Virus record (IMG/VR): IMGVR_UViG_3300032117_000135
Span: 1-26,230 of that record
Source of the DNA: a virus
Length of the DNA stretch: 26,230 nucleotides
Direction: 5' to 3' (one strand)
Shown here: positions 947 to 21,135 of the stretch, in pieces
How the letters are laid out: each line of letters opens with the position of its first letter
Numbering within the stretch: position 1 is the first letter of the stretch
Notes under the pieces: generated by a model
What the model was told of the DNA's origin: nothing
The model's database searches: none
The model's input: only the letters and a program-made list of their open reading frames with translations
Made by a program: the position numbers and the translations under genes

Positions 947-1643
947 TAACTTCAGCGTCTACAATTCCTGAAGCCCAACTGGGTTCCATGTCTCCGCCGA
1001 GTTCAATCATTCGGTTTGCAAACATCTGACGAGCAGTATCAATCTGCGCTTCTGACAACTTCAAGTCCTTGCTGAGAATGATGGCCATAAAAGCCGCACC
1101 AACAAGGTTTGCTTGGTGTTCTTCAAGTTCGATTACACGCTTGCGCAAATCGTACTTCATCATAAACTCCAAAGCGCCTTGATAGCGTTCCCAAGCACGT
1201 TCCATGACTTCAATCAAAGCACGGACGTGCTCCACTCCGGCCTTGTCAGTAACTTCAAGAATGCCGTTGAGTTCGCTCATCTTGTCTTCAAGGATTAGCG
1301 TCCACTGCTTCATCTTGGAAGCAAGTTGGAACGCCTCAATCTCTGGTGGGCCTAGTGGCTCTGGTTCTCCCAGTTTCTCTGAGAGCGTTAGGAGTTCTTT
1401 CTTCATAACGGTCTGGATAGCGCCAGTGGTGTGCTTGGCTGTATTGCCAAGATGCCACTTGCACGTCCCTGCTCCAAGATGATTGGTTCCCATGCCCGCT
1501 GTCTTGTAACAGTAGCGTGTGATACCAAGTTCTTTGAGTTCTTTATTTTTTAGCCTTGCTCCGCATTTGCCTTCTAATGGCTCTGCGCTTCCTGGCAATT
1601 TTTCGTCTGGGTGTATTTGTGCCCAGCGTTCTTCGTCTGTCAT
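939..1643 (-). CDS. Cys/His-containing protein, possibly terminase small subunit-like
   Basis: This 234-residue protein has an N-terminal zinc-binding-like cluster: C27, C45, H55 (GTNHLGAGTC), C61 and H64 (CKWH). The rest is long, charged and helical. An N-terminal CxxH(G) module followed by helices is seen in several actinophage DNA-packaging or DNA-binding proteins, so a small-terminase-like role is possible. No large terminase is in the window to support it. Its ATG overlaps the stop of the WhiB-like gene by four bases (ATGA), and it is the last gene of the left-arm operon. Existence as a gene is secure; function is not. Confidence 0.65.
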   Translation of the reverse strand: MTDEERWAQIHPDEKLPGSAEPLEGKCGARLKNKELKELGITRYCYKTAGMGTNHLGAGTCKWHLGNTAKHTTGAIQTVMKKELLTLSEKLGEPEPLGPPEIEAFQLASKMKQWTLILEDKMSELNGILEVTDKAGVEHVRALIEVMERAWERYQGALEFMMKYDLRKRVIELEEHQANLVGAAFMAIILSKDLKLSEAQIDTARQMFANRMIELGGDMEPSWASGIVDAEVIN

Positions 1644-2056
1644 GCGGCAGTCCTTCTTTTCTCTTTGTACTTTCTCATAAATTCACGGTTTGCTTGCTTG
1701 CATTCTTGACAAGTAGGCATACCGATATTTACTTCTTGCAAGTAGCCTTTTCTTGTGCCGTGAATAATGTCGTTGGGGTGAGTGCCTGTTCCGTTCTTTC
1801 GACGCATTACGGTTCTACGCATGTCGTCGTTCTTTTCAGGTTCCGGTATGCCGAGTTCCCTCCGCTTGTGAAAGCGCTCCTTCTCGGTCATACCGCCCTG
1901 ATAACCAAAGGCTTCGTTATAGAGTGCGTTTTTTGCACATTGCTCTAAGACGGGACATTCCTCACACATCTGTACTACTTCTTTGCGTGTTACACCCTGA
2001 GTGTAAAACAACCGTACGTCTGCACCCCGACAAAGTGCGTTAACTCGCCATGACAT
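1640..2056 (-). CDS. WhiB-like iron-sulfur regulator with an extra C-terminal Cys pair
   Basis: WhiB-family proteins hold a 4Fe-4S cluster on four cysteines and regulate transcription with the actinobacterial housekeeping sigma factor. This 138-residue protein has C9, C31, C34 and C40 (CEECPVLEQC), then the turn GYQGG at 51-55 in place of the usual GVWGG, then an ErrxxRR-like basic stretch. A second module near the C-terminus, C116xxC119 followed by a basic helix, is not part of the usual family. The ATG at 2056 is chosen because it overlaps the upstream stop as TAATG. A longer reading to 2125 adds a tail inside the previous gene. Phage WhiBs can antagonise host WhiB proteins, so a host-modulating role is a reasonable inference. 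Confidence 0.85.
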   Translation of the reverse strand: MSWRVNALCRGADVRLFYTQGVTRKEVVQMCEECPVLEQCAKNALYNEAFGYQGGMTEKERFHKRRELGIPEPEKNDDMRRTVMRRKNGTGTHPNDIIHGTRKGYLQEVNIGMPTCQECKQANREFMRKYKEKRRTAA

Positions 2057-2253
2057 TAATTTGCAAACCACCAGTCTGGAAGAATCCAATCTGATGGGGT
2101 TCCTAGTCGAACCATGTGTGCGCATGGGTCACTGCCCTCTTCCCATGCTCGTTCTTCAGTTTCGTGCATTGGATATGCGTCGTGAGTGTTGCAAAACTGC
2201 TCACTGCAAAATCCATTTTCAAGTCCGTACTTTAACCACTCTTCAAAATTCAT
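2056..2253 (-). CDS. Small conserved actinophage-type protein
   Basis: The 65-residue product starts MNFEEWLKYG. It contains two Cys (FCSEQFC), a THDAYPM motif and a DPCAHMVRLG motif. Similar small Cys/His proteins with a THD and DPC pattern occur in actinophage genomes as unknowns. A bound metal is possible but unproven. The ATG at 2253 follows an AAAGGAA ribosome site; upstream in-frame ATGs lack such spacing. The stop overlaps the WhiB-like start by one base (TAATG), so translation is likely coupled. Confidence 0.75.
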   Translation of the reverse strand: MNFEEWLKYGLENGFCSEQFCNTHDAYPMHETEERAWEEGSDPCAHMVRLGTPSDWILPDWWFAN

Positions 2254-2829: not shown

Positions 2830-3321
2830 CTACGACCCGCAGTAAAGACTTTTTACTGGGCCAGTCACGAACGGTGAGTATTTAACTGCTACTTCCACGG
2901 CGTAACTTAGTTCGTTTGGGCCTATGTCCTCGCAACCTTCTAAGTATCCGAGTGCATAGGGGGAACCGCTACCAATCGCCAAGAATGGCGATTCCATTTC
3001 CACCGCCGAAAAGTCATTTTGAACAATGACCAACGGACGGTTTGGCCAAGCACAAAGAATCTCCGTATCCTTCACGGAATCATCTTCGCCCTTGATTTCT
3101 CTGAGCATACTCACGATTGTTTCGGGAGTACACTTTCTTTTCTCTAACTTCGAGAGAAGATTTATGATGCGCCAAGAACCGGCTGCACCTATAATGCCGT
3201 TACCGGCATGAATGAACGCTTTTGGTGTCGAAGAAACCAGCAAGGCGTCTTCGTCCCCGACTGCGGAATCAAACGCCATACCACAACTAAATTCATTTGT
3301 AAAAGCGGCTACAACAGTCAT
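2830..3321 (-). CDS. Proteasome beta/HslV-like Ntn threonine protease
   Basis: This 163-residue protein looks like the catalytic subunit of HslV or the 20S proteasome. After Met removal, Thr2 becomes the N-terminal nucleophile. D18 (AFDSAV) and K34 (STPKAF) then fall at mature positions 17 and 33, exactly the proteasome catalytic numbering. GAAGSW at 45-50 corresponds to the HslV AGG turn, and AIGSGSPYALG at 115-125 matches the HslV AIGSGG-YA strand. There is no prosequence. No HslU or Mpa ATPase partner is in the window. The gene sits between the DnaB-like helicase and the Rpf-like gene with a weak ribosome site. It may degrade host or phage proteins; the target is unknown. Confidence 0.8.
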   Translation of the reverse strand: MTVVAAFTNEFSCGMAFDSAVGDEDALLVSSTPKAFIHAGNGIIGAAGSWRIINLLSKLEKRKCTPETIVSMLREIKGEDDSVKDTEILCAWPNRPLVIVQNDFSAVEMESPFLAIGSGSPYALGYLEGCEDIGPNELSYAVEVAVKYSPFVTGPVKSLYCGS

Positions 3322-3336
3322 TAGGAAAGCCTATCA

Positions 3337-4533
3337 TCAATCGTAGATTCCGTCAACCAGCCAGTTGCGGTCACGGATAATTCGGTCAGGCCAAGAAACG
3401 CCCTGCAAACGGTCTCCACGGTAACGCTTAACGTGAAGCATTGTGGGGTCTGTGCTGTCCTTGTAGAGGGAGATACCAACTTCAGGCCAAGCCATCCAAC
3501 GCTGTGAACCCATTGGGGTCAACTCACGCTCTCCTGCTTTGCCCTTAGCGGCGTGGTGCTCCATAACGAGGGCGAACTGGTACTTCGTACGCAACTCGTC
3601 CAAAACACCCATTGCGGCGTCAGCAGAATCTTCGTAGGTCTCATTAGCGCCACGACGGTACATCTTGTAAATAGGTCCAATGCAAACGAGGTCAGGTTGG
3701 TGAGCCGCAATCTCTCGCTGAACCTCCGCCTTGTCTGCAAGGCTTCGGATTTCGATTCCACCTGGGCGACGGAAGAACTTAAGTCGCTCTTCGTCAAAGT
3801 TCTCACCGGCACGCTCTCTCATCATCTGCATAAAAGGAGCACCGGTCTGCGTAATCGCTTGCGTTGGGTTTTCAAGGTCAATAATCAGAACACGCTGTGG
3901 TTCAATTCGCTGGTGGCTAAATGGGTGGAAGCCCTGTGAAGCCGACATAGCAATCGTTCGTAGCAAAAGCGACTTACCCGAACCTTCTTCAGCAACAACA
4001 ATGGTACGGTAGTCCTTGTTCATCATTCCTGGAATAACAACCGGAGCAATGGCGTCTGCGTTGCTAACTAACTGGCTCATTGTCATTGATTCTGGCTCTG
4101 AAGAACGCATTGTTCCAACGCCACTCAAAGCCTTGGTCAGACCAGCCGCAACTTCGTACGGGTTCTCACCAAGCATAAGCAAGTTGTTGTATTCGTGAAG
4201 GTCGTGAAGCATTTTGCGACTTGAACTGTGCTTCAAAATAATTGCGCCGTAATCTGCTGCGTTGCTCGCAGATGGGCAGTTCAAAGACATTGATACCAAC
4301 TTAGGTATCGATTCGTTGTCCTTCATCTCTGAAGCAACTGTCACTGCGTCAATCTTCATTCCACGACTAAAGAGACTGATGATGGCACCAAAAGCCCTAG
4401 CGTTAAGTGGGTTGTAAAAATCCTCTGCCCTACAAGAATCAATACCGACCATTGTTGCTTCTGCTGAAATCAGCATTGCGCCGATAAGCGCTTCCTCTGC
4501 TTCAAAGTCATGTGGAATTTTCTGCCCGCTCAT
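3337..4533 (-). CDS. DnaB/RepA-like replicative helicase
   Basis: This 398-residue protein is the likely fork helicase. Residues 5-110 resemble the DnaB N-terminal domain (IPHDFEAEEALIGAML, then EDFY-NPLNARAFGAI). The second half is a RecA-fold ATPase closer to RepA/AAA_25 proteins: Walker A EEGSGKS at 182-188, Walker B-type LIIDLEN at 216-222, and a histidine sensor region (VMEHHAAKGKAG). It is shorter than bacterial DnaB (about 450-470). AGAAAGGG precedes the ATG. It lies directly downstream of the O-like initiator, the usual loader-helicase order. A primase role is not evident. Confidence 0.85.
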   Translation of the reverse strand: MSGQKIPHDFEAEEALIGAMLISAEATMVGIDSCRAEDFYNPLNARAFGAIISLFSRGMKIDAVTVASEMKDNESIPKLVSMSLNCPSASNAADYGAIILKHSSSRKMLHDLHEYNNLLMLGENPYEVAAGLTKALSGVGTMRSSEPESMTMSQLVSNADAIAPVVIPGMMNKDYRTIVVAEEGSGKSLLLRTIAMSASQGFHPFSHQRIEPQRVLIIDLENPTQAITQTGAPFMQMMRERAGENFDEERLKFFRRPGGIEIRSLADKAEVQREIAAHQPDLVCIGPIYKMYRRGANETYEDSADAAMGVLDELRTKYQFALVMEHHAAKGKAGERELTPMGSQRWMAWPEVGISLYKDSTDPTMLHVKRYRGDRLQGVSWPDRIIRDRNWLVDGIYD

Positions 4534-4545
4534 TTAAAACCCTTT

Positions 4546-5475
4546 CTAGTTTGTTGCGTACTTTACCGACTGGCGCTTGCCCTGATTGTCCAGTTGGTAT
4601 GGTTTGCCGTTGATATCAACGGTCTGATTCTTAACGTTGGTTGGACGAGTGTAGCCAAACTTGATTGGGTTGTCAACCCTTTGTTCCTGTGTCTTGGGGT
4701 CAATCCATCCACCAAAGAAATCCCAGTCCTCGTAAATCTCTGCCAATACCAACTGTGCTTCAGTCAGGCTAGACATTTCCTCTACCTTTGGCAGGTAGTC
4801 CTCGTAACGACGGTTCGGTCCGTAGAACGTCTTTGCTTGAAGAGTGAACTTGTCATCTTCGTTGGCTCGCAACTTGACGTAAGCCTCAGTAGCACGTAGA
4901 AGAACCTCGTAGGGAATCTTGTCGTCTTTGATTCGCCCGTTGTAAGCCTCGTAAGCACCTGGCTTGTTTTCCTTGCGTGGGTAAATAGCCCATAGTGCGT
5001 CAAACTCAGGTGTGTAAACCTTAGCCTTACGGGTCTTTTTTACTTCCGTTTTTGGCGAGATAATATCTTTCTTTAATGTTCTTTCTATTAATGTTCTTTC
5101 ATGTTGTACCGTTTCGTTCCCTACCCCTATACCGTTTGGCGGACTACCTAGTACCGTTTCATTCCCTACCCCCTCCCGTATCATGGGCCACAGGTAGTAG
5201 AAATTACTGGTGTATGAACCGTCTTCACGCTTGCGCTTTGTAGTCGAAATTGCACCAAGTTCAACTAATTCCTTAATGGAAGAATCAACTGTCTTGATGT
5301 TGCAGTGCATACGCTCTGCTAGAAGTTTGCGGGAGGGCCAAGCGGCCTCGTTGCTCCCAACGTATCGGCTAAGAACCCCAAAAAGTCGAACCGCATACGG
5401 ACTAATATCTGCGTCCAGAATCCACTCTGGGATAGTGGTGTAGATAAACCCCTCAACGCCGAATGGCTTATTCAT
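4546..5475 (-). CDS. Phage replication initiator (lambda O-like) with winged HTH
   Basis: The 309-residue protein has an N-terminal winged helix-turn-helix (about 25-85; LLAERMHCNIKTVDSSIKEL is the HTH). A low-complexity linker follows at about 95-140, with GVGNETV twice and ERTL twice. The C-terminal domain (about 150-240) has the FDALWAIYPRK motif found in many phage replication O/loader proteins. Such proteins bind origin iterons and recruit the DnaB-like helicase encoded next door. The repeated peptides reflect DNA repeats that look like an origin inside the gene. The ATG overlaps the helicase stop by four bases (ATGA). Confidence 0.8.
   Translation of the reverse strand: MNKPFGVEGFIYTTIPEWILDADISPYAVRLFGVLSRYVGSNEAAWPSRKLLAERMHCNIKTVDSSIKELVELGAISTTKRKREDGSYTSNFYYLWPMIREGVGNETVLGSPPNGIGVGNETVQHERTLIERTLKKDIISPKTEVKKTRKAKVYTPEFDALWAIYPRKENKPGAYEAYNGRIKDDKIPYEVLLRATEAYVKLRANEDDKFTLQAKTFYGPNRRYEDYLPKVEEMSSLTEAQLVLAEIYEDWDFFGGWIDPKTQEQRVDNPIKFGYTRPTNVKNQTVDINGKPYQLDNQGKRQSVKYATN
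5061..5172 (-). other. Candidate replication origin: iterons plus AT-rich element
   Basis: A 22-base direct repeat with one mismatch occurs at 5106-5127 and 5151-5172. Its core TACCGTTT occurs a third time at 5130-5137, giving three cores at 22-23-base steps, about two helical turns. Next to it lies an AT-rich stretch (5061-5101) with a 13-base direct repeat, TTAATGTTCTTTC, at 5073-5085 and 5088-5100. The order along the initiator gene (DNA-binding domain, iterons, AT-rich element, partner domain) is that of the lambda origin inside gene O. Repeats are seen directly; origin function is inferred. Confidence 0.6.
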
Positions 5476-7581: not shown

Positions 7582-7615
7582 GTAGGAAAATTTGAAATTT
7601 GAAAATGGAGAAACC

Positions 7616-8650
7616 GTGGCAAGAAAGTCAGCAAGCCAGTCAAAAGACTCGCTAGCCTCTGTACTAGAGGAAATCAATAAGCAATTTGGTGCAGGTTCTA
7701 TTATGAGCCTTTCCGAATCAGATGTAGTGCCAGTAGATGTAATCCCTACTGGAATCCTTCCCCTCGACCTTGCGCTCGGCGTTGGTGGTCTTCCAAGGGG
7801 TCGCATTGTGGAGTTCTTTGGCCCACCTTCTTCCGGTAAGTCAACGCTCGCACTTCATGCAATCTCAGAGGCGCAGAAGATGGGGTTGACTTGTGCCTAT
7901 GTTGATGCAGAGCACGCTCTTGACGCTGTTTATGCAAACGCAGTTGGCGTTGACCTGCCTAGTCTTTTGATTAGTCAGCCCAGCACCGCAGAGCAGGGTT
8001 TGGAAATCACCATTCGCCTTGTTGACAGTGGCGAGATTGGGTTGATTGTTATTGACTCTGTAGCCGCTTTGGTTCCCCGTGCGGAAATTGAGGGAGAAAT
8101 GGGTGACGCTCACGTTGGTCTTCAGCCACGCCTTATGGGTCAAGCGTTGCGAAAGTTGACAGGAACCGTATCAAGAACGAATACATTAGTTATTTTCATT
8201 AACCAGTTGAGGGAATCAATTGGCAAAATGTACGGCCCTAGCGAGTACACACCTGGTGGCAAGGCTCTTCCCTACTACTCATCAGTACGACTTGATGTTC
8301 GACGCATTCAAACAATCAAGAAGGGTGAGGAAGCAACAGCAAACCGCACTCGTGTCAAGGTAGTGAAGAACAAAGTTGCTCCACCGCTTAAGCAAGCAGA
8401 GTTTGACCTTGAGTTCGGTGTTGGGGTTCCAAAGGCTAACGCCTTGTTGGACTGCGCCATTGACGCTGGAATTTTGCGACAGGCTGGCGCTTGGATTTAC
8501 TACGAAGGTGAGCAGTTTGCCAACGGACGAATCAAGGCTAAAAACAAGTTGGAAGAACAGCCAGAGTTGTACGAATCAATCTACAATCAGGTAATTGCCA
8601 CGCTCGGAAATGAAAAGTTGAATAAGGCTATTGACAATGACGAAGATTAA
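7616..8650 (+). CDS. recA: RecA recombinase
   Basis: RecA coats single-stranded DNA, drives strand exchange and triggers LexA cleavage. The 344-residue protein has Walker [10 protein letters not shown] at 69-77, the catalytic-type E99 (DAEHALD), Walker B IVIDS at 144-148, and a DNA-binding loop L2 region around [12 protein letters not shown] (196-207) followed by [18 protein letters not shown]-like sequence. The C-terminal tail is short and mildly acidic. The GTG at 7616 is chosen because GGAG lies six bases upstream. A longer TTG reading starting at 7592 lacks a ribosome site. The gene opens the recombination operon behind an SOS-type box. Its own RecA could sense or amplify damage signals. 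Confidence 0.95.
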
Positions 8651-12163: not shown

Positions 12164-12318
12164 CGACAGAAAAACACTACGTTGAGTACGTTTTTCAAAA
12201 TGGAAAGTACGACGCTGTTTGCTCGTGCTATTGGCGGTCTTCTTCTGAAGTCCGTGGAACAATCTTAAGTGAAATCCACATGCACATGATTAAAGAAACT
12301 TCTGGGCTCAATGATTAG
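12151..12318 (+). CDS. Small Cys/His protein of unknown function
   Basis: The 55-residue product has CSC followed by YWRSSSEVRG and an EIHMHMIK helix, like small actinophage proteins with a Cys pair and a late His that may bind zinc. AGGA at 12140-12143 favours the ATG at 12151 over one at 12145. It overlaps the HNH end by 13 bases and the next gene by eight. Confidence 0.65.
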   Translation: MGKVATEKHYVEYVFQNGKYDAVCSCYWRSSSEVRGTILSEIHMHMIKETSGLND

Positions 12319-12634
12319 TTATACCGAGTATGAAATCTTAGAGTTCATTCGAGTTCTTGAAGAATCAAGGCCTAGTTTTTATTGGCTTGCTCTGTGTCGT
12401 AATTCAGATACAAGCGAGTTTTTCCCTGGAAGAGGCCAGTCCTCAAAGATTAAAAAGGCAATTGAAGTGTGCACTTACTGCCCAGTTCAATATGAATGCC
12501 ACGAATACGCAATTGAAAACAAGATAGAACACGGAGTTTGGGGTGGTTCTACCCCAGAGCAAAGGGCACGATGGATACAGGACGATACTTTGGTATACGA
12601 CGCATGGATGGAAATAAGTCCAGAACTAGAATAA
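12311..12634 (+). CDS. WhiB-like iron-sulfur regulator
   Basis: This 107-residue protein is a clear WhiB-family member: C29 (LALCRNSDTSEFFPG), C54, C57 and C63 (CTYCPVQYEC), then the invariant turn GVWGG at 75-79 and TPEQRARW. It lacks the extra C-terminal Cys pair of the other WhiB at 1640-2056. It ends the recombination operon and its last nine bases overlap the convergent gene. It probably redirects host sigma-factor-dependent transcription or blocks a host WhiB; this is inference from known phage WhiBs. Confidence 0.88.
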   Translation: MISYTEYEILEFIRVLEESRPSFYWLALCRNSDTSEFFPGRGQSSKIKKAIEVCTYCPVQYECHEYAIENKIEHGVWGGSTPEQRARWIQDDTLVYDAWMEISPELE

Positions 12635-14798: not shown

Positions 14799-15061
14799 TA
14801 TTGCTCCTGTGGTATTAGTTCTTCTAGTTCAATTGTGTCGGCAAAATCATAAAGGGTCATGTACGCTGAAGTGTCTCCCGCAAAAAGCGTTGCCTTCAAA
14901 ACAACAGGCACAAAACAAGCGGAGTTGTCTTCTATCTTTGTGGTACCCGAAACGTCGCCAATTGATACAGTCCCCGGCTGGGGAAATGACTGACGATACG
15001 TTGGACTTACATACCATGGTTGCGGTAAGTTGAAATACCCCGTATTGAATCCGCTGGTCAT
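14798..15061 (-). CDS. Small protein after the fibre, probably structural
   Basis: The 87-residue product starts [20 protein letters not shown], with VPVVLKATLFAGDTSAYMTL in the middle and an acidic end. It is not recognised. TAATG overlaps couple it to the fibre upstream and the beta-rich protein downstream, so a fibre-assembly or tail role is likely from context only. Confidence 0.7.
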   Translation of the reverse strand: MTSGFNTGYFNLPQPWYVSPTYRQSFPQPGTVSIGDVSGTTKIEDNSACFVPVVLKATLFAGDTSAYMTLYDFADTIELEELIPQEQ

Positions 15062-18000
15062 TAGTAAGCACCCATAATTTGCATGGTTTGAATGTCGTTG
15101 TCCTGCATGGCTCCTGAACCGTTAGTGGCAACAACCGTACCGTTGAGGGTGATTGTTCCTGTAAACGTTGGAGAAGCAGCAGGGGCAAGCGTTGTGCTGG
15201 ATGGAATGGTTGTGCCATTAACACTTGTAACGTTTGGCAATGAAGTTGTCGAAGAGGTTATAAGTGTTGCGCTTGACGGAATCGTTGTGCCGTTAACGGA
15301 AGTTACGTTAGGCAAAGATGTTGTTGAAGTGGTAACAAGCGTTGCGCTTGACGGAATTGTTGTTCCGTTGACAGAAGTAACGCTTGGCAACGATGTTGTG
15401 GTGCTTGTAATTAACGTTGCGGACGAAGGGATTGAAGTCCCGTTAATTGACGTTGCGGTTGCAACTCCAAGAACTGGTGTAACCAGCGTGGGGGAAGTAG
15501 AAAGAACGTTTGCACCGCTACCAGTTGAAGTTGTTACTCCAGTACCACCATGCAAAATACTAAGAGTTCCAGTCGTGACATTTCCTACTCCAACTACGGT
15601 CGGGGATGAAGCGGTTCCGCCAAGGTCGCCCGAAAGTTGGATGATTCCTTCTACGCTCGATGTTGCGGCGGTAGGAATCTGACCAAATGCGGCGGCATCA
15701 GTAGATGCAGTTCCATTGGCAAGACCAGTAATCTTTTGACTATTCATAGCAAGAGTGCCATAAATTGTCGTGTTACCGGCTGCGCTAATGGTCATCGCAT
15801 CAGTTGCGCCGTTATTAACAACAAAGTGAATCGGCTTTGAACTGTATGTACCAATTGCAAGGTCTGTGGTTGCTGATGCAACGTAAACGTTGCCTGGGGA
15901 GTTAAAAGCACCAGAGCCTTGGAAGCCTGAAGAGTTAATACCAATTTCACCATAGTTGGAGTTGTTGGTTCCCTGGTCATTAGAAATGTTGAAGTTTGCG
16001 CTGGACTGGTATCCACTGCTAAGGTTTTGAATAATTACCTGAGTGTAGTTATTCACATTCTCCGCAATTGACTCCATAATGTTTACGTCGGAGTAGCCCA
16101 ACGCTGAACCAATTTGAGAAGGGCCAGCATTTGTCGAAACCGTACTTGAAGGTACGTTGGTTACGCCAATGCTTGGAACAGATAGAGCACCAGTCATTGT
16201 TCCGCCAGAAGTTTGTAGCGCACCGGCTACGGTCGTGTTGGCAGAAATAATTGACTCAACGTTTGTTGTTGCAACAAGCGTAGGGTTAGGGTAGGAGCCT
16301 GTAAGGTCACCGCCAGCAGAACCCGTGGAAGGGCCCGTTGCGCCTTGGTAGCCCTGGTATCCTTGGTAACCTTGCGAACCTTGCGAGCCCGTGTTTCCCT
16401 GGTAACCTTGCGGACCTTGTGCGCCAGTTGCACCGGTGGAGCCTTGTGAGCCCTGTGAACCCTGTGAACCAGTGGAACCCTGAACGCCCTGAGGGCCTGT
16501 GTTTCCTTGGTAGCCCTGAACTCCTTGATTCCCCTGGTAGCCCTGAACTCCTTGCGTACCCTGGAAACCCTGAGAACCTTGAGCACCCTGTACGCCAACT
16601 GCTCCGTCAAGGTTTACAGTCCATGCAGAGTAAGTTCCCGAACCAACAACGTCACCAGGGGTTGTTCCAACTGTAAAGTTGAAAGCACCAGTGATGGAGT
16701 CATATGTGTTAACAGTTGCTACAACGTAGTTAGAACTATCGTAGGCAATTACAGCACCTTGTCCCGGAGTCCATGAAAGACCCGTTGCAATAGTTATGGT
16801 TGCAGTTCCAGTTCCTAGCGTGTAAGAAGTTGTACTTGTGCTTGCGTAGTGGTCGCTGTACCCCTGGAAACCCTGATTTCCCTGGTACCCCTGGTACCCT
16901 TGCGTTCCTTGATTGCCCTGATAACCCTGCGGTCCCTGGGCGCCGGTTGTTCCTTGGTATCCCTGGGAACCAGTAGCACCCTGGACGCCCTGAGAACCAG
17001 TAGCGCCCGTGGAGCCTTGTGGTCCGGTTGCGCCCTGAGAACCCGTTGCGCCCTGAGCGCCGGTTGAACCTTGCGCACCGGTACCACCTTGGTACCCTTG
17101 ATATCCTTGCGAGCCCTGAGAGCCTTGTGCACCTGTAGAACCCTGAGAACCAGTTGAACCCTGGTACCCCTGTGGACCTTGCGCACCTTGGTAACCTTGG
17201 TTTCCCTGGGCACCAGTATTACCTTGTGCACCAGTAGCGCCTTGTGCGCCAGTGGAACCCTGTGCTCCAGTTGAACCCTGAGCACCAGTCGAACCTTGGA
17301 ATCCTTGAGTACCTTGATTACCTTGGAATCCTTGTGGGCCAGAATCACCTTGATACCCTTGCGCTCCCATCGTCCCCTGTGCACCAGTAGCACCAGTGGA
17401 CCCTTGGGCACCAGTAGAGCCCTGATAGCCCTGATAACCTTGTGTTCCCTGAGCACCAGTTGCACCGGTTGCGCCTTGCGTACCTTGGTATCCCTGAGTT
17501 CCCTGAGCGCCTGCCGAGCCTTGAGCACCAGTAGAACCTTGGTAGCCCTGAACGCCTTGGAAACCCTGGCTTCCTTGCGCTCCGGTGGAGCCCTGTGCTC
17601 CAGTCACACCCTGGTAGCCTTGGCTACCTTGTGCGCCGGTTGAGCCCTGATTGCCTTGGTATCCTTGAAATCCCTGGTTGCCTTGAGAACCCTGGGCTCC
17701 AGTGGCTCCTGTAGAACCTTGTGCTCCAGTCGAGCCTTGAACCCCCTGATAACCTTGATTTCCCTGAGTGCCCTGAGAGCCAGTGGCACCTTGAGCGCCG
17801 GTAAAGCCTTGTGCTCCTTGATTTCCCTGTGAACCTTGCGAACCTTGAAAACCTTGTGCGCCTTGAACGCCCTGGTAGGTGATTTGCTGTGCCGTTACAA
17901 TTACGCCAGGAGTTTGGGGTGTTGTTGGGGTAGTGCCTGCCGCAAGCGTGTCAATTTGGACACTTGTTGAAGAAGCAGTCCACATAAGTTGCAGATAATC

Positions 18001-21000
18001 GCCTGCACTCAAAGTCAAAACATAGTTGATAGCAGCAATCATTGCACCGGTACCACCGTGTGAGGTACCTGGAAGTCCATATTCAGAATTGGTATCTACA
18101 ACATCTGTGCCGTTCTTGCGAAGCCATACGTCAACCGTGTCACCATTGCTGTCGCTGCTGTAGAACTGAATTGAATATTGTAAATTGTAAGTACCAGCGT
18201 AAGCAAAAGTAATTTGATTACCGCTAACAATTGTAACTCCGTTACTTTCGGCAACAGTGTTTATGTTTACTGGGTAGGCGGTTGTTGTGCTGCTAATCGT
18301 TTGAATAGTTGTGTCGTACGCTGAAATGTAGTGGGCAATAACGCCGCCAGCGCCAGGAACACCTTGAGGACCTTGAGGGCCCTGACCTGAAACCTGCGTC
18401 CAGTTAATGTTGTCGGTGCCAATAACAATTGAACCGTCCGAGTAAGAACCTGATGAAATCATTTCATAGGTCTTACCCACATTTGTCGTACCGGCGATTA
18501 CGAGTGTGTAGTCACCAGCAGAAACTTCGCTTTTAACGCTGTCGTTGTAGTCTGACGCACGAGTAAGAACCCATTTGGTCGAACCCGAACCTGTCGCTGT
18601 TACGGTGTAGATACCGTTGTACTTAGCATTCGTGTTTGATGCAACAAGTACGCGTTGATTAGCGGTAAGGGTTACACCGTCAATTACAAGAGCGCCGTTT
18701 GCGGTTGCGGTAAGGGTTGCACCAATGCCATACCCACCGTTTGCGTCAATGGTACCGGCGGTGTAAGTGGAAGAGTTTGTTGTGCCAAAAGTATCTGCAA
18801 CCTGAACTGATGCGTGAGCATTCAAAGCAGATGGAGCACCCTGAGCACCTTGAAAACCTTGATTGCCTTGGTTGCCTTGACTGCCCTGAACGCCTTGGTA
18901 ACCTTGATTTCCTTGACTTCCCTGTACTCCCTGTACACCTTGAGTGCCTTGGTAACCTTGGTTTCCCTGTGAACCCGTGGCGCCCTGAGCGCCTGTTGAG
19001 CCCTGTGCTCCCTGGTAACCTTGATTACCTTGAAAACCCTGGTTGCCTTGCGTACCTTGTGTACCTTGTGCACCAGTCGAGCCTTGCGCACCTTGTGAAC
19101 CAGTAGTACCTTGGTAACCTTGTGCTCCTTGTGCGCCCGTAGCGCCTTGAGTACCTGTCTGGCCTTGGTAGCCCTGGTTTCCTTGATAGCCCTGGAATCC
19201 CTGTGCACCAGTCACACCTATTGAACCTTGAGCACCAGTGCTTCCTTGAGCACCTTGGTATCCCTGGTATCCCTGGTAACCTTGCGAACCAGTTGCTCCG
19301 GTCGAACCCTGGGCGCCCTGAGCACCCGTGGAGCCTTGCGCTCCGGTAGAACCCTGAGAACCAGTGCTTCCCTGAGCGCCTTGATTTCCCTGCGCACCTT
19401 GCGTACCTTGGTAGCCTTGAGTTCCTTGAGCGCCAGTGTTTCCAGTTGCGCCTTGAACGCCCTGATAGCCCTGCGCACCCTGCGCACCAGTTGAACCTTG
19501 GAAACCTTGATTTCCTTGATAACCCTGAGCACCTGTGGAGCCAGTTGCACCCTGTGAGCCTTGTGAACCTGTTTGTCCCTGGTTACCTTGAGTTCCCTGG
19601 TTTCCCTGAGTGCCTTGATAACCTTGAACACCCTGGGCTCCGGTCGAGCCTTGGTAGCCTTGTGCCCCCTGTTGGCCTGTTGAACCCTGAGCGCCCTGAG
19701 CACCAGTAGAACCGGTTGAACCTTGAGAGCCCTGCGAACCCATTGGGCCTTGTGCGCCTGTTGCGCCTTGTGAGCCCGTTGCACCGGTTGAACCCTGCGC
19801 TCCAGTTTGTCCTTGGTAGCCTTGCGTGCCCTGATTACCCTGGAACCCCTGGTTGCCTTGAGTGCCTTGACTACCCTGAGCGCCTTGGAACCCTTGGTTA
19901 CCTTGGCTACCCTGGAATCCTTGCGTACCCTGAACACCGGTTGCACCGTCAAGGTTGACACTCCAAGAAGAATATGTGCCAGAACCCATAATGGTATTAA
20001 CGGCAACGACCATAGCGCCAGTACCGGCGTTGTAGGAAGTAACCAAACCATTCATGTAATTTGACGTGTTGTATGCGATTACAACGCTTTGACCAGCGGT
20101 GTAGGCAAGGCCGGTTCCAATCGTAAGCGATTGAGATGTGGCGGAAATAGTTAATGATGTAGTCGAAGAAGTGTGGTAAATGTCACCAGTGACGCCCTGA
20201 ACACCTTGGTTACCTTGGTAACCTTGGGTTCCTTGTGCACCTGTAGAACCCTGGTATCCCTGGGCGCCTTGAACGCCCTGAGTTCCTTGAGTTCCCTGAG
20301 AACCTTGAGCACCCGTTGAGCCCTGAGCACCGGTAGCACCGGTCGAGCCTTGTGCTCCGGTAAAACCCTGAAAGCCTTGATTACCCTGTGTGCCCTGGAA
20401 ACCTTGAGGACCTTGAGCACCAGTGTCACCCTTGGTACCGGTGGTACCAGTTACACCTTGAGTACCTTGGTTACCTTGAAAACCCTGATGTCCTTGTGTA
20501 CCCTGAAAACCTTGACTACCTTGAACGCCTTGAGAGCCTTGATAGCCCTGAGGTCCCTGTACGCCGGTTGCGCCTTGCACACCCTGGGCTCCAGTTGCTC
20601 CGGTCGAACCCTGTGGTCCAGTTGAGCCTTGTAATCCCTGAGGACCCTGAAAACCCTGAGGCCCTTGGTTCCCCTCTGCGTAACTTAATGCTTCGTTTGC
20701 AATTTCAATTGCTTCAACTACGCCTCGGTTAAATTGAAGGCTTTCAACGGCAGATGCGCCGTGGTAAACGTCAGGAGTTTTTACCTGAGTTGTTTGGTGG
20801 TAGTGGGTCTGAATAATTGTTGAGTCATATCCACGACCGTTATTTCCTTCACCGTCGTACCATACTGTAATAAAAGAATTCTCTATATCAACCGCAGAAC
20901 AAAGGATGCGCTCTTCATTTGAGGCTCCAGGGTTCAGGGTAATGACAAAAGGCCCAGAGGTGCCAAGCGGCGTAGTTGACGCTTGACCCAATGGGCTGAC

Positions 21001-21135
21001 CTCGTACCAACCAGAGGCGGACGAAATTGGAATTGTCTGAAGAGACGTGTAGTAATCCGGCACGTCTGTAGTGATATAGGCCGGTGGTACTGAGCCACCG
21101 TATGAGCGTATGGTAGTTTCGTTAGGAAATGCCAT
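15061..21135 (-). CDS. Giant collagen-like tail fibre protein
   Basis: This 2024-residue protein is a composite fibre. Residues 1-154 form a head domain with a [15 protein letters not shown] motif like the virion-proximal ends of other phage fibres. Gly-X-Y tracts run at about 155-317, 397-766, 917-931, 1089-1426 and 1511-1601, near 975 residues in total. Between them lie two copies of a related beta domain (318-396 and 1427-1510; DIYHTSS/SDHYAST start, [16 protein letters not shown] end), a DNA-fibre-like domain (767-916) and a C1q-like domain (932-1088). Residues 1602-2024 form a tip with [19 protein letters not shown] and four copies of a 25-residue repeat. The triplets are rich in Gln, Thr, Ser, Tyr and Phe but poor in Pro. 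It probably reaches the host receptor. Confidence 0.9.
15187..15456 (-). repeat. Tandem 75-base repeat at the fibre tip
   Basis: Three full and one partial copy of a 25-residue unit, [12 protein letters not shown]-centred and ending TSLPN, occupy fibre residues 1894-1983. The copies differ by a few synonymous and conservative changes. They probably form a beta-helical or spiral stalk before the last 41 residues. Confidence 0.8.
16333..20673 (-). repeat. Collagen-like GXY repeat tracts
   Basis: Gly-X-Y-coding 9-base units recur across four long tracts (20673-20185, 19947-18838, 17871-16858 and 16605-16333) and one short tract (18387-18343), broken by globular domains. On the plus strand these appear as repeated CCTTGG/CCCTGG units and create long spurious open frames. 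Such tracts favour unequal recombination, so tract length should vary between related phages. Confidence 0.85.

Follow-up and report, generated by a model that had tools for sequence, protein, structure and literature searches.

A probable lambda-type replication origin within the initiator gene of an environmental virus

The replication initiator gene of the virus studied here very probably contains the phage's origin of replication in the part that encodes its interdomain linker, and this origin appears to be of the lambda type. The conclusion draws on sequence comparison and on analogy with lambdoid phages, in which the origin lies within the initiator gene. We analysed a stretch of 26,230 nucleotides (the window; IMG/VR record IMGVR_UViG_3300032117_000135), where the candidate origin was narrowed to about 135 bp. 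For most environmental phages, those that infect uncultured freshwater hosts among them, no origin is known.

The repeat array in the linker of the initiator gene

The initiator gene (4546..5475, minus strand) encodes a protein of 309 amino acids. Its product matched Pfam HTH_36 (E 1.2e-8) and, weakly, DnaD_N, and the phrog_270 'replication initiation protein' profile (E 5.5e-35) covered residues 11-231, spanning both of its domains. An AlphaFold model, built from 24 aligned sequences, contains a winged-helix DNA-binding domain at about residues 12-97 (5185..5442, minus strand), with confident helices and wing and a Pfam match at residues 23-74, and a C-terminal domain at about residues 154-305 (4561..5016, minus strand), which is also confident in the model and would contact the helicase. 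The recognition-helix region is residues 59-70, NIKTVDSSIKEL. The first-pass annotation had placed the repeats in a linker between a DNA-binding and a partner domain, and the model agrees: residues 100-148 have pLDDT values below 50, as expected of a disordered linker between two confident domains. The iterons and 13-mers encode about residues 94-135, so only a degenerate first iteron extends into the end of the N domain. Among solved folds, the winged-helix domain came closest to the N-terminal domains of DnaD and of Rep initiators, with modest E-values (0.0027-0.026); among predicted viral proteins, the nearest were initiators from Arthrobacter phage Bumble and Gordonia phage VanLee.

A letter search of the window located TACCGTTT at 5107, 5130 and 5152, giving three copies of the core AAACGGTA on the coding strand of the initiator gene at steps of 23 and 22 bp. 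In the direction of the gene these exact cores belong to iteron 2 (5151..5172, minus strand), iteron 3 (5129..5150, minus strand) and iteron 4 (5106..5127, minus strand), the last of which adjoins the A+T tract; iterons 2 and 4 are 22-base repeats identical at 21 of 22 positions. A tolerant scan added a fourth, degenerate core, TCCCGTATCAT at 5174, which agrees in 9 of 11 letters and lies 22 bp from the neighbouring copy; it marks iteron 1 (5173..5194, minus strand), whose core reads ATGATACGGGA. The three regularly spaced cores and the 22-base repeats reported by the first-pass annotation were thus found at their coordinates, and the total is probably four rather than three. The adjoining AT-rich tract with 13-base direct repeats was likewise as described. 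It holds two exact copies of TTAATGTTCTTTC; the first in gene direction, GAAAGAACATTAA, is at 5088..5100 (minus strand) and has the same codons in relatives, and the second is at 5073..5085 (minus strand). A+T content peaks over the 40 bp at 5060..5099, at 82% compared with 53% gene-wide, and this stretch represents a candidate unwinding element, to which no strand is assigned. A DNA pattern search found the 27-bp pair of 13-mers in 12 viral stretches.

The significance of the array was examined against several nulls. A two-copy periodic score overlooked the spaced array of the window and a chain score was added. In the tolerant scan of the window the linker array ranked first with a score of 12 (runner-up 6), the collagen-like gene being excluded from this ranking. 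None of 200 dinucleotide shuffles (20 kb) yielded an exact 8-mer in three copies regularly spaced by 15-30 bp. Synonymous-codon shuffles that kept the protein reached the window array in 4 of 60 and 6 of 60 cases, and the array by itself is only suggestive against this protein-preserving null. The result is modest because the outer two copies share a frame and encode the same peptide (iterons 2, 3 and 4 are in frames 1, 2 and 1); the middle core is translated in the other frame, as PNGI and not NETV. Since the window array alone is insufficient against the synonymous null, the weight of the DNA-level case is carried by the relatives. The dyad symmetry of the iterons is weak in the window and clear in the relatives L033/L105, L049 and L103. 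As palindrome strength over whole genes was generally not above that of shuffles, dyad symmetry was dropped as evidence for the window.

The downstream neighbour of the initiator (3337..4533, minus strand) carries a DnaB N-terminal domain and an AAA_25 ATPase (Pfam E 6.4e-19 and 4.5e-19) and is a putative replicative helicase. Its product also matched phrog_19, DnaB-like helicase (E 1.4e-20), and DnaB N-domain structures. This fusion has no Pfam match to DnaB_C, an unusual helicase build that is common in relatives, and a DnaB/AAA_25 gene adjoins the initiator in many of them. With this gene as the downstream neighbour, a P-like helicase loader is absent beside the initiator; a SNF2-type helicase gene lies upstream. 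Other genes of the window encode a full-length RecA including its C-terminal domain (7592-8650, plus strand), near a YqaJ exonuclease, an ERF annealing protein and an SSB, an HslV-family peptidase-like product (2830-3321, minus strand; phrog_1040 E 9.3e-17), and a 2024-aa collagen-like repeat protein of GXQ/GXT triplets (15061-21135, minus strand), probably a fibre or appendage protein.

A pair of WhiB-family genes (1640-2125, minus strand, and 12311-12634, plus strand; Pfam E 2.2e-13 and 1.1e-18) and an encoded Rpf-type transglycosylase domain bear out the actinobacterial look noted at first pass. It is on these features, and not on a host genome, that we consider the window to derive probably from a freshwater virus with an actinobacterial host. 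A bacterial genome scan with the SNF2 helicase did not assign a host because its matches were just 23-36% and spread over many phyla. No named phage with DNA similarity to the candidate region was found.

Relatives and searches by DNA pattern

Two scans that made use of neighbouring genes produced 110 viral loci, 98 of which contained the initiator. These initiators comprised 43 unique sequences and 23 distinct relatives, with N domains 18-81% identical to that of the window; two contigs in which the window's initiator gene recurs at 100% add nothing. In 21 of the 23 distinct relatives the A+T maximum fell within 0.39-0.50 of the gene's length. While the iteron sequence was wholly changed (types GTAGCCGCYAA, CTATCACCNGTGATAG, CCCCCTACCCA, CCTCACCAGTGAGG and GGTGGCAGCCAGTTGCCA), the order of iterons and then A+T tract was kept in the linker, and the copies lay at steps of about 22 bp in changing frames. 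This comparison of linkers, which had been proposed as a check, therefore came out in favour of the DNA repeats. The identity of the C domain to relatives varied independently of that of the N domain. Two alignments proved too divergent to be scanned for patterns.

L036/L101 and L041, which are closest to the window (79-81% N-domain identity), have GTAGCCGCYAA iterons, with four copies in the stretch that matches the window's array, and an unchanged pair of 13-mers. Within the 13-mer segment the shared codons were identical in 13 of 13 (L036) and 14 of 14 (L041) cases, compared with 57% and 49% of same-residue codons elsewhere. In L052 the 13-mer repeats are 14 bp apart and the copies are consequently read in two frames. 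Together with the differing frame of the middle core in the window, these observations uphold the earlier view that the repeated peptides GVGNETV and ERTL are by-products of the DNA repeats.

Among named-phage relatives, the linker array was beyond every protein-preserving shuffle in 12 of 21, and a linker repeat was so in a further 4 of the 21, as it was in lambda O. When entire loci were scanned, the top-scoring array lay in the linker in 13 of 28, a set that takes in all the nearer relatives. In several distant relatives (e.g. L058, L056, L064, L060 and L069) two weak copies or none were detected; some distant relatives without a scan-visible three-copy array show two palindromic copies by eye. 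The initiators of phages Andrew, DatBoi, PMBT6 and JBD68 have linker iterons with the core ACGGGGTG, and cores are found in differing frames in the window, Andrew, DatBoi and JBD68.

The core ACGGGGTG was then used as a DNA pattern, three times at exact 22-bp steps, and at least 120 stretches were recovered. Among the matches listed, 136 of 136 arrays sit within an ORF classed as initiator-like (a match to the initiator profile or a known member) and are on its coding strand. At least 95 distinct complete ORFs in at least 17 clusters were represented. These loci were found without protein similarity, although the scoring profile does include members that carry this core. The median array start was at 0.43 of the gene for the 119 complete ORFs among the matches listed from both pattern searches. 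For one iteron type, the layout thus recurs at every array listed from a search by DNA only. With AAACGGTA as the pattern, just 7 of 17 arrays were in initiator-like ORFs, so this core alone is neither specific nor diagnostic. The AAACGGTA arrays of L294 and L299 are in lambda O-related genes (34% and 40% identity), and their iterons are possibly convergent.

Iteron type, DNA-binding domain and tract repeats

Over 35 genes, iteron similarity correlated with recognition-helix identity when the rest of the domain and the C domain were removed (partial Mantel r 0.23, p 0.0005). For the remainder of the N domain the correlation was r 0.15 (p 0.002), and for the C domain it was absent (r -0.05, p 0.79). 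Physical linkage of the iterons and the domain can produce part of the correlation with the helix. The window and L096 form a mosaic pair in which the N domains are 36% identical, the linkers differ and the C domains are 61% identical; identity is 10% at residues 121-140 and 85% at residues 141-160, with the switch directly beyond the A+T tract. This pair suggests that such genes recombine just beyond the origin, and reader and site would therefore travel together.

It is possible, although we think it rather unlikely, that the link between iterons and domain reflects nothing more than the shared descent of one segment, with no co-adaptation of reader and site; such an addition to the origin reading does not contradict it. 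The iterons directly adjoin the domain and move with it in recombination, as the mosaic pair illustrates. However, recognition-helix identity remains partially correlated with iteron similarity once the rest of the domain is accounted for, and the ACGGGGTG core is common to Pseudomonas, Bifidobacterium, Gordonia and Arthrobacter phages with R[ST]VQ-type helices. Because the relatives are natural pairs of a DNA-binding domain and its cognate sites, a change of initiator specificity in a functioning gene is directly testable.

Repeats confined largely to one strand were observed in the tracts. At least three GAAC repeats within 55 bp of the linker occurred on the coding strand in 11 of 41 genes (shuffle mean 3.9), and TAAT repeats in 13 of 41 (shuffle mean 2.0). 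Their reverse complements were rare (1 and 3 of the 41 genes, respectively), an asymmetry to which one-strand codon use contributes. The initiator genes of Mycobacterium phage ByChance (L018, ~862-910) and Rhodococcus phage ReT1v-2 (L021, ~925-970) have GAACAG repeats that fall in all three frames, with spacings of 8 and 14 bp. Since RK2 TrfA binds one strand of the oriV 13-mers (PMC4081077), a single-strand reading of the 13-mers is plausible here. We tentatively suggest that, family-wide, the strand-specific GAAC- and TAAT-type repeats may be read single-stranded by the initiator or the helicase, and that iteron sequence may be predictable from a few residues of the recognition helix. If this is true, phage sequence alone would give both origins and their specificity. 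The resemblance of TAA/TAC tracts to DnaA-trios is a lead.

The origin model and known systems

Based on the precedent of lambda (PMC7466680) and on gene order, we propose that the winged-helix domain would bind the three or four 22-bp iterons inside its own gene and that the resulting complex would strain and open the adjoining A+T tract. The opened 13-mers could possibly be held single-stranded by the initiator, and the C-terminal domain would recruit the phage's own DnaB-like helicase from the next gene. GC skew, which had been put forward as a check, gives this origin no support since it does not switch at the linker: it is negative across 4.5-7 kb and turns only near 7.0-7.6 kb, at a boundary between divergent genes. 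In this record, which is probably a fragment, GC skew tracks the coding strand.

The skew without a switch at the array would also fit repeats that are operators for repression or tuning of the gene by its own product, with replication starting elsewhere; autoregulation is indeed conceivable for a winged-helix protein whose sites lie in its own gene. We regard this explanation as improbable, as the sites occupy the middle of the gene, a long way from its start, and the A+T maximum of the gene comes next, as in lambda, and phased arrays with strand-specific tract repeats are origin-like; operator and origin roles may coexist. A repetitive linker peptide, grown by duplication as a flexible spacer without a DNA role, is highly improbable. 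In its favour, linkers are disordered and length-variable, the outer copies both encode GVGNETV and 4-6 of 60 protein-preserving shuffles reach the window array. Against it, cores are retained in differing frames (window, Andrew, DatBoi, JBD68 and L052), conservation of codons exceeds that of the protein, and the ACGGGGTG arrays among the matches listed all fall in initiator ORFs, on the coding strand.

The lambda-type origin that we favour can be compared with several systems. The initiators of Arthrobacter, Gordonia, Bifidobacterium and Pseudomonas phages (phrog_270/phrog_1032; Andrew, DatBoi, PMBT6 and JBD68) are of the same family by profile and have the linker iteron layout of the window. 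They differ in their core, ACGGGGTG, and several have tract repeats of the GAACC type, spaced by about 11 bp. An annotated origin was absent from the stretches examined in records of these phages (Andrew, DatBoi, PMBT6 and JBD68 types), and no description of an Arthrobacter phage origin was found in the open-licence literature, a prior description elsewhere being possible. RK2 oriV/TrfA is similar in having iterons and a tract with 13-mers, the window being known from its repeats alone; oriV has four 13-mers and lies outside the initiator gene, and its initiator is unrelated to that of the window. For extrachromosomal mycobacteriophage prophages, an origin in or beside repA has been suspected by analogy with lambda, and a repeated motif was not found in the regions that the authors examined (PMC7157519). 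The window is like these RepA prophages in its actinobacteriophage initiator and in a candidate origin in or beside the gene; unlike the regions examined there, it has yielded repeats.

In lambda, O binds iterons that are 19-bp imperfect inverted repeats, the A+T tract is required for unwinding, and two iterons plus the tract are the minimum for unwinding (PMC7466680). When the annotated lambda iterons were analysed with the same scripts, four copies in differing frames were located at 0.39-0.47 of the O gene with the A+T maximum at 0.48; in the window, iterons at about 0.30-0.40 are followed by the A+T maximum at 0.40. Measured against the annotated origin, the lambda-like order and placement claimed by the first-pass annotation are therefore supported. 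Both systems have mid-gene iterons at 20-24-bp steps with copies in differing frames, an A+T tract on the C-terminal side, and an initiator made of DNA-binding and partner domains. Unlike lambda O, which scores 123 bits against Pfam Phage_rep_O (PF04492), the window protein did not match this family; its hhalign comparison with lambda O was not significant and its matches to the O-like phrogs 391, 678 and 345 were weak only. Judged by sequence, the initiator falls outside the Pfam family of lambda O. The window also differs in lacking an adjacent P-like loader and in its weak iteron dyad. What holds of the earlier description as an O-like protein is thus the lambda-type layout, and not Phage_rep_O membership or a P-like neighbour. 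The proposed origin is of a known kind, and the regularity added here is the breadth of the pattern across phages and the link between reader and site.
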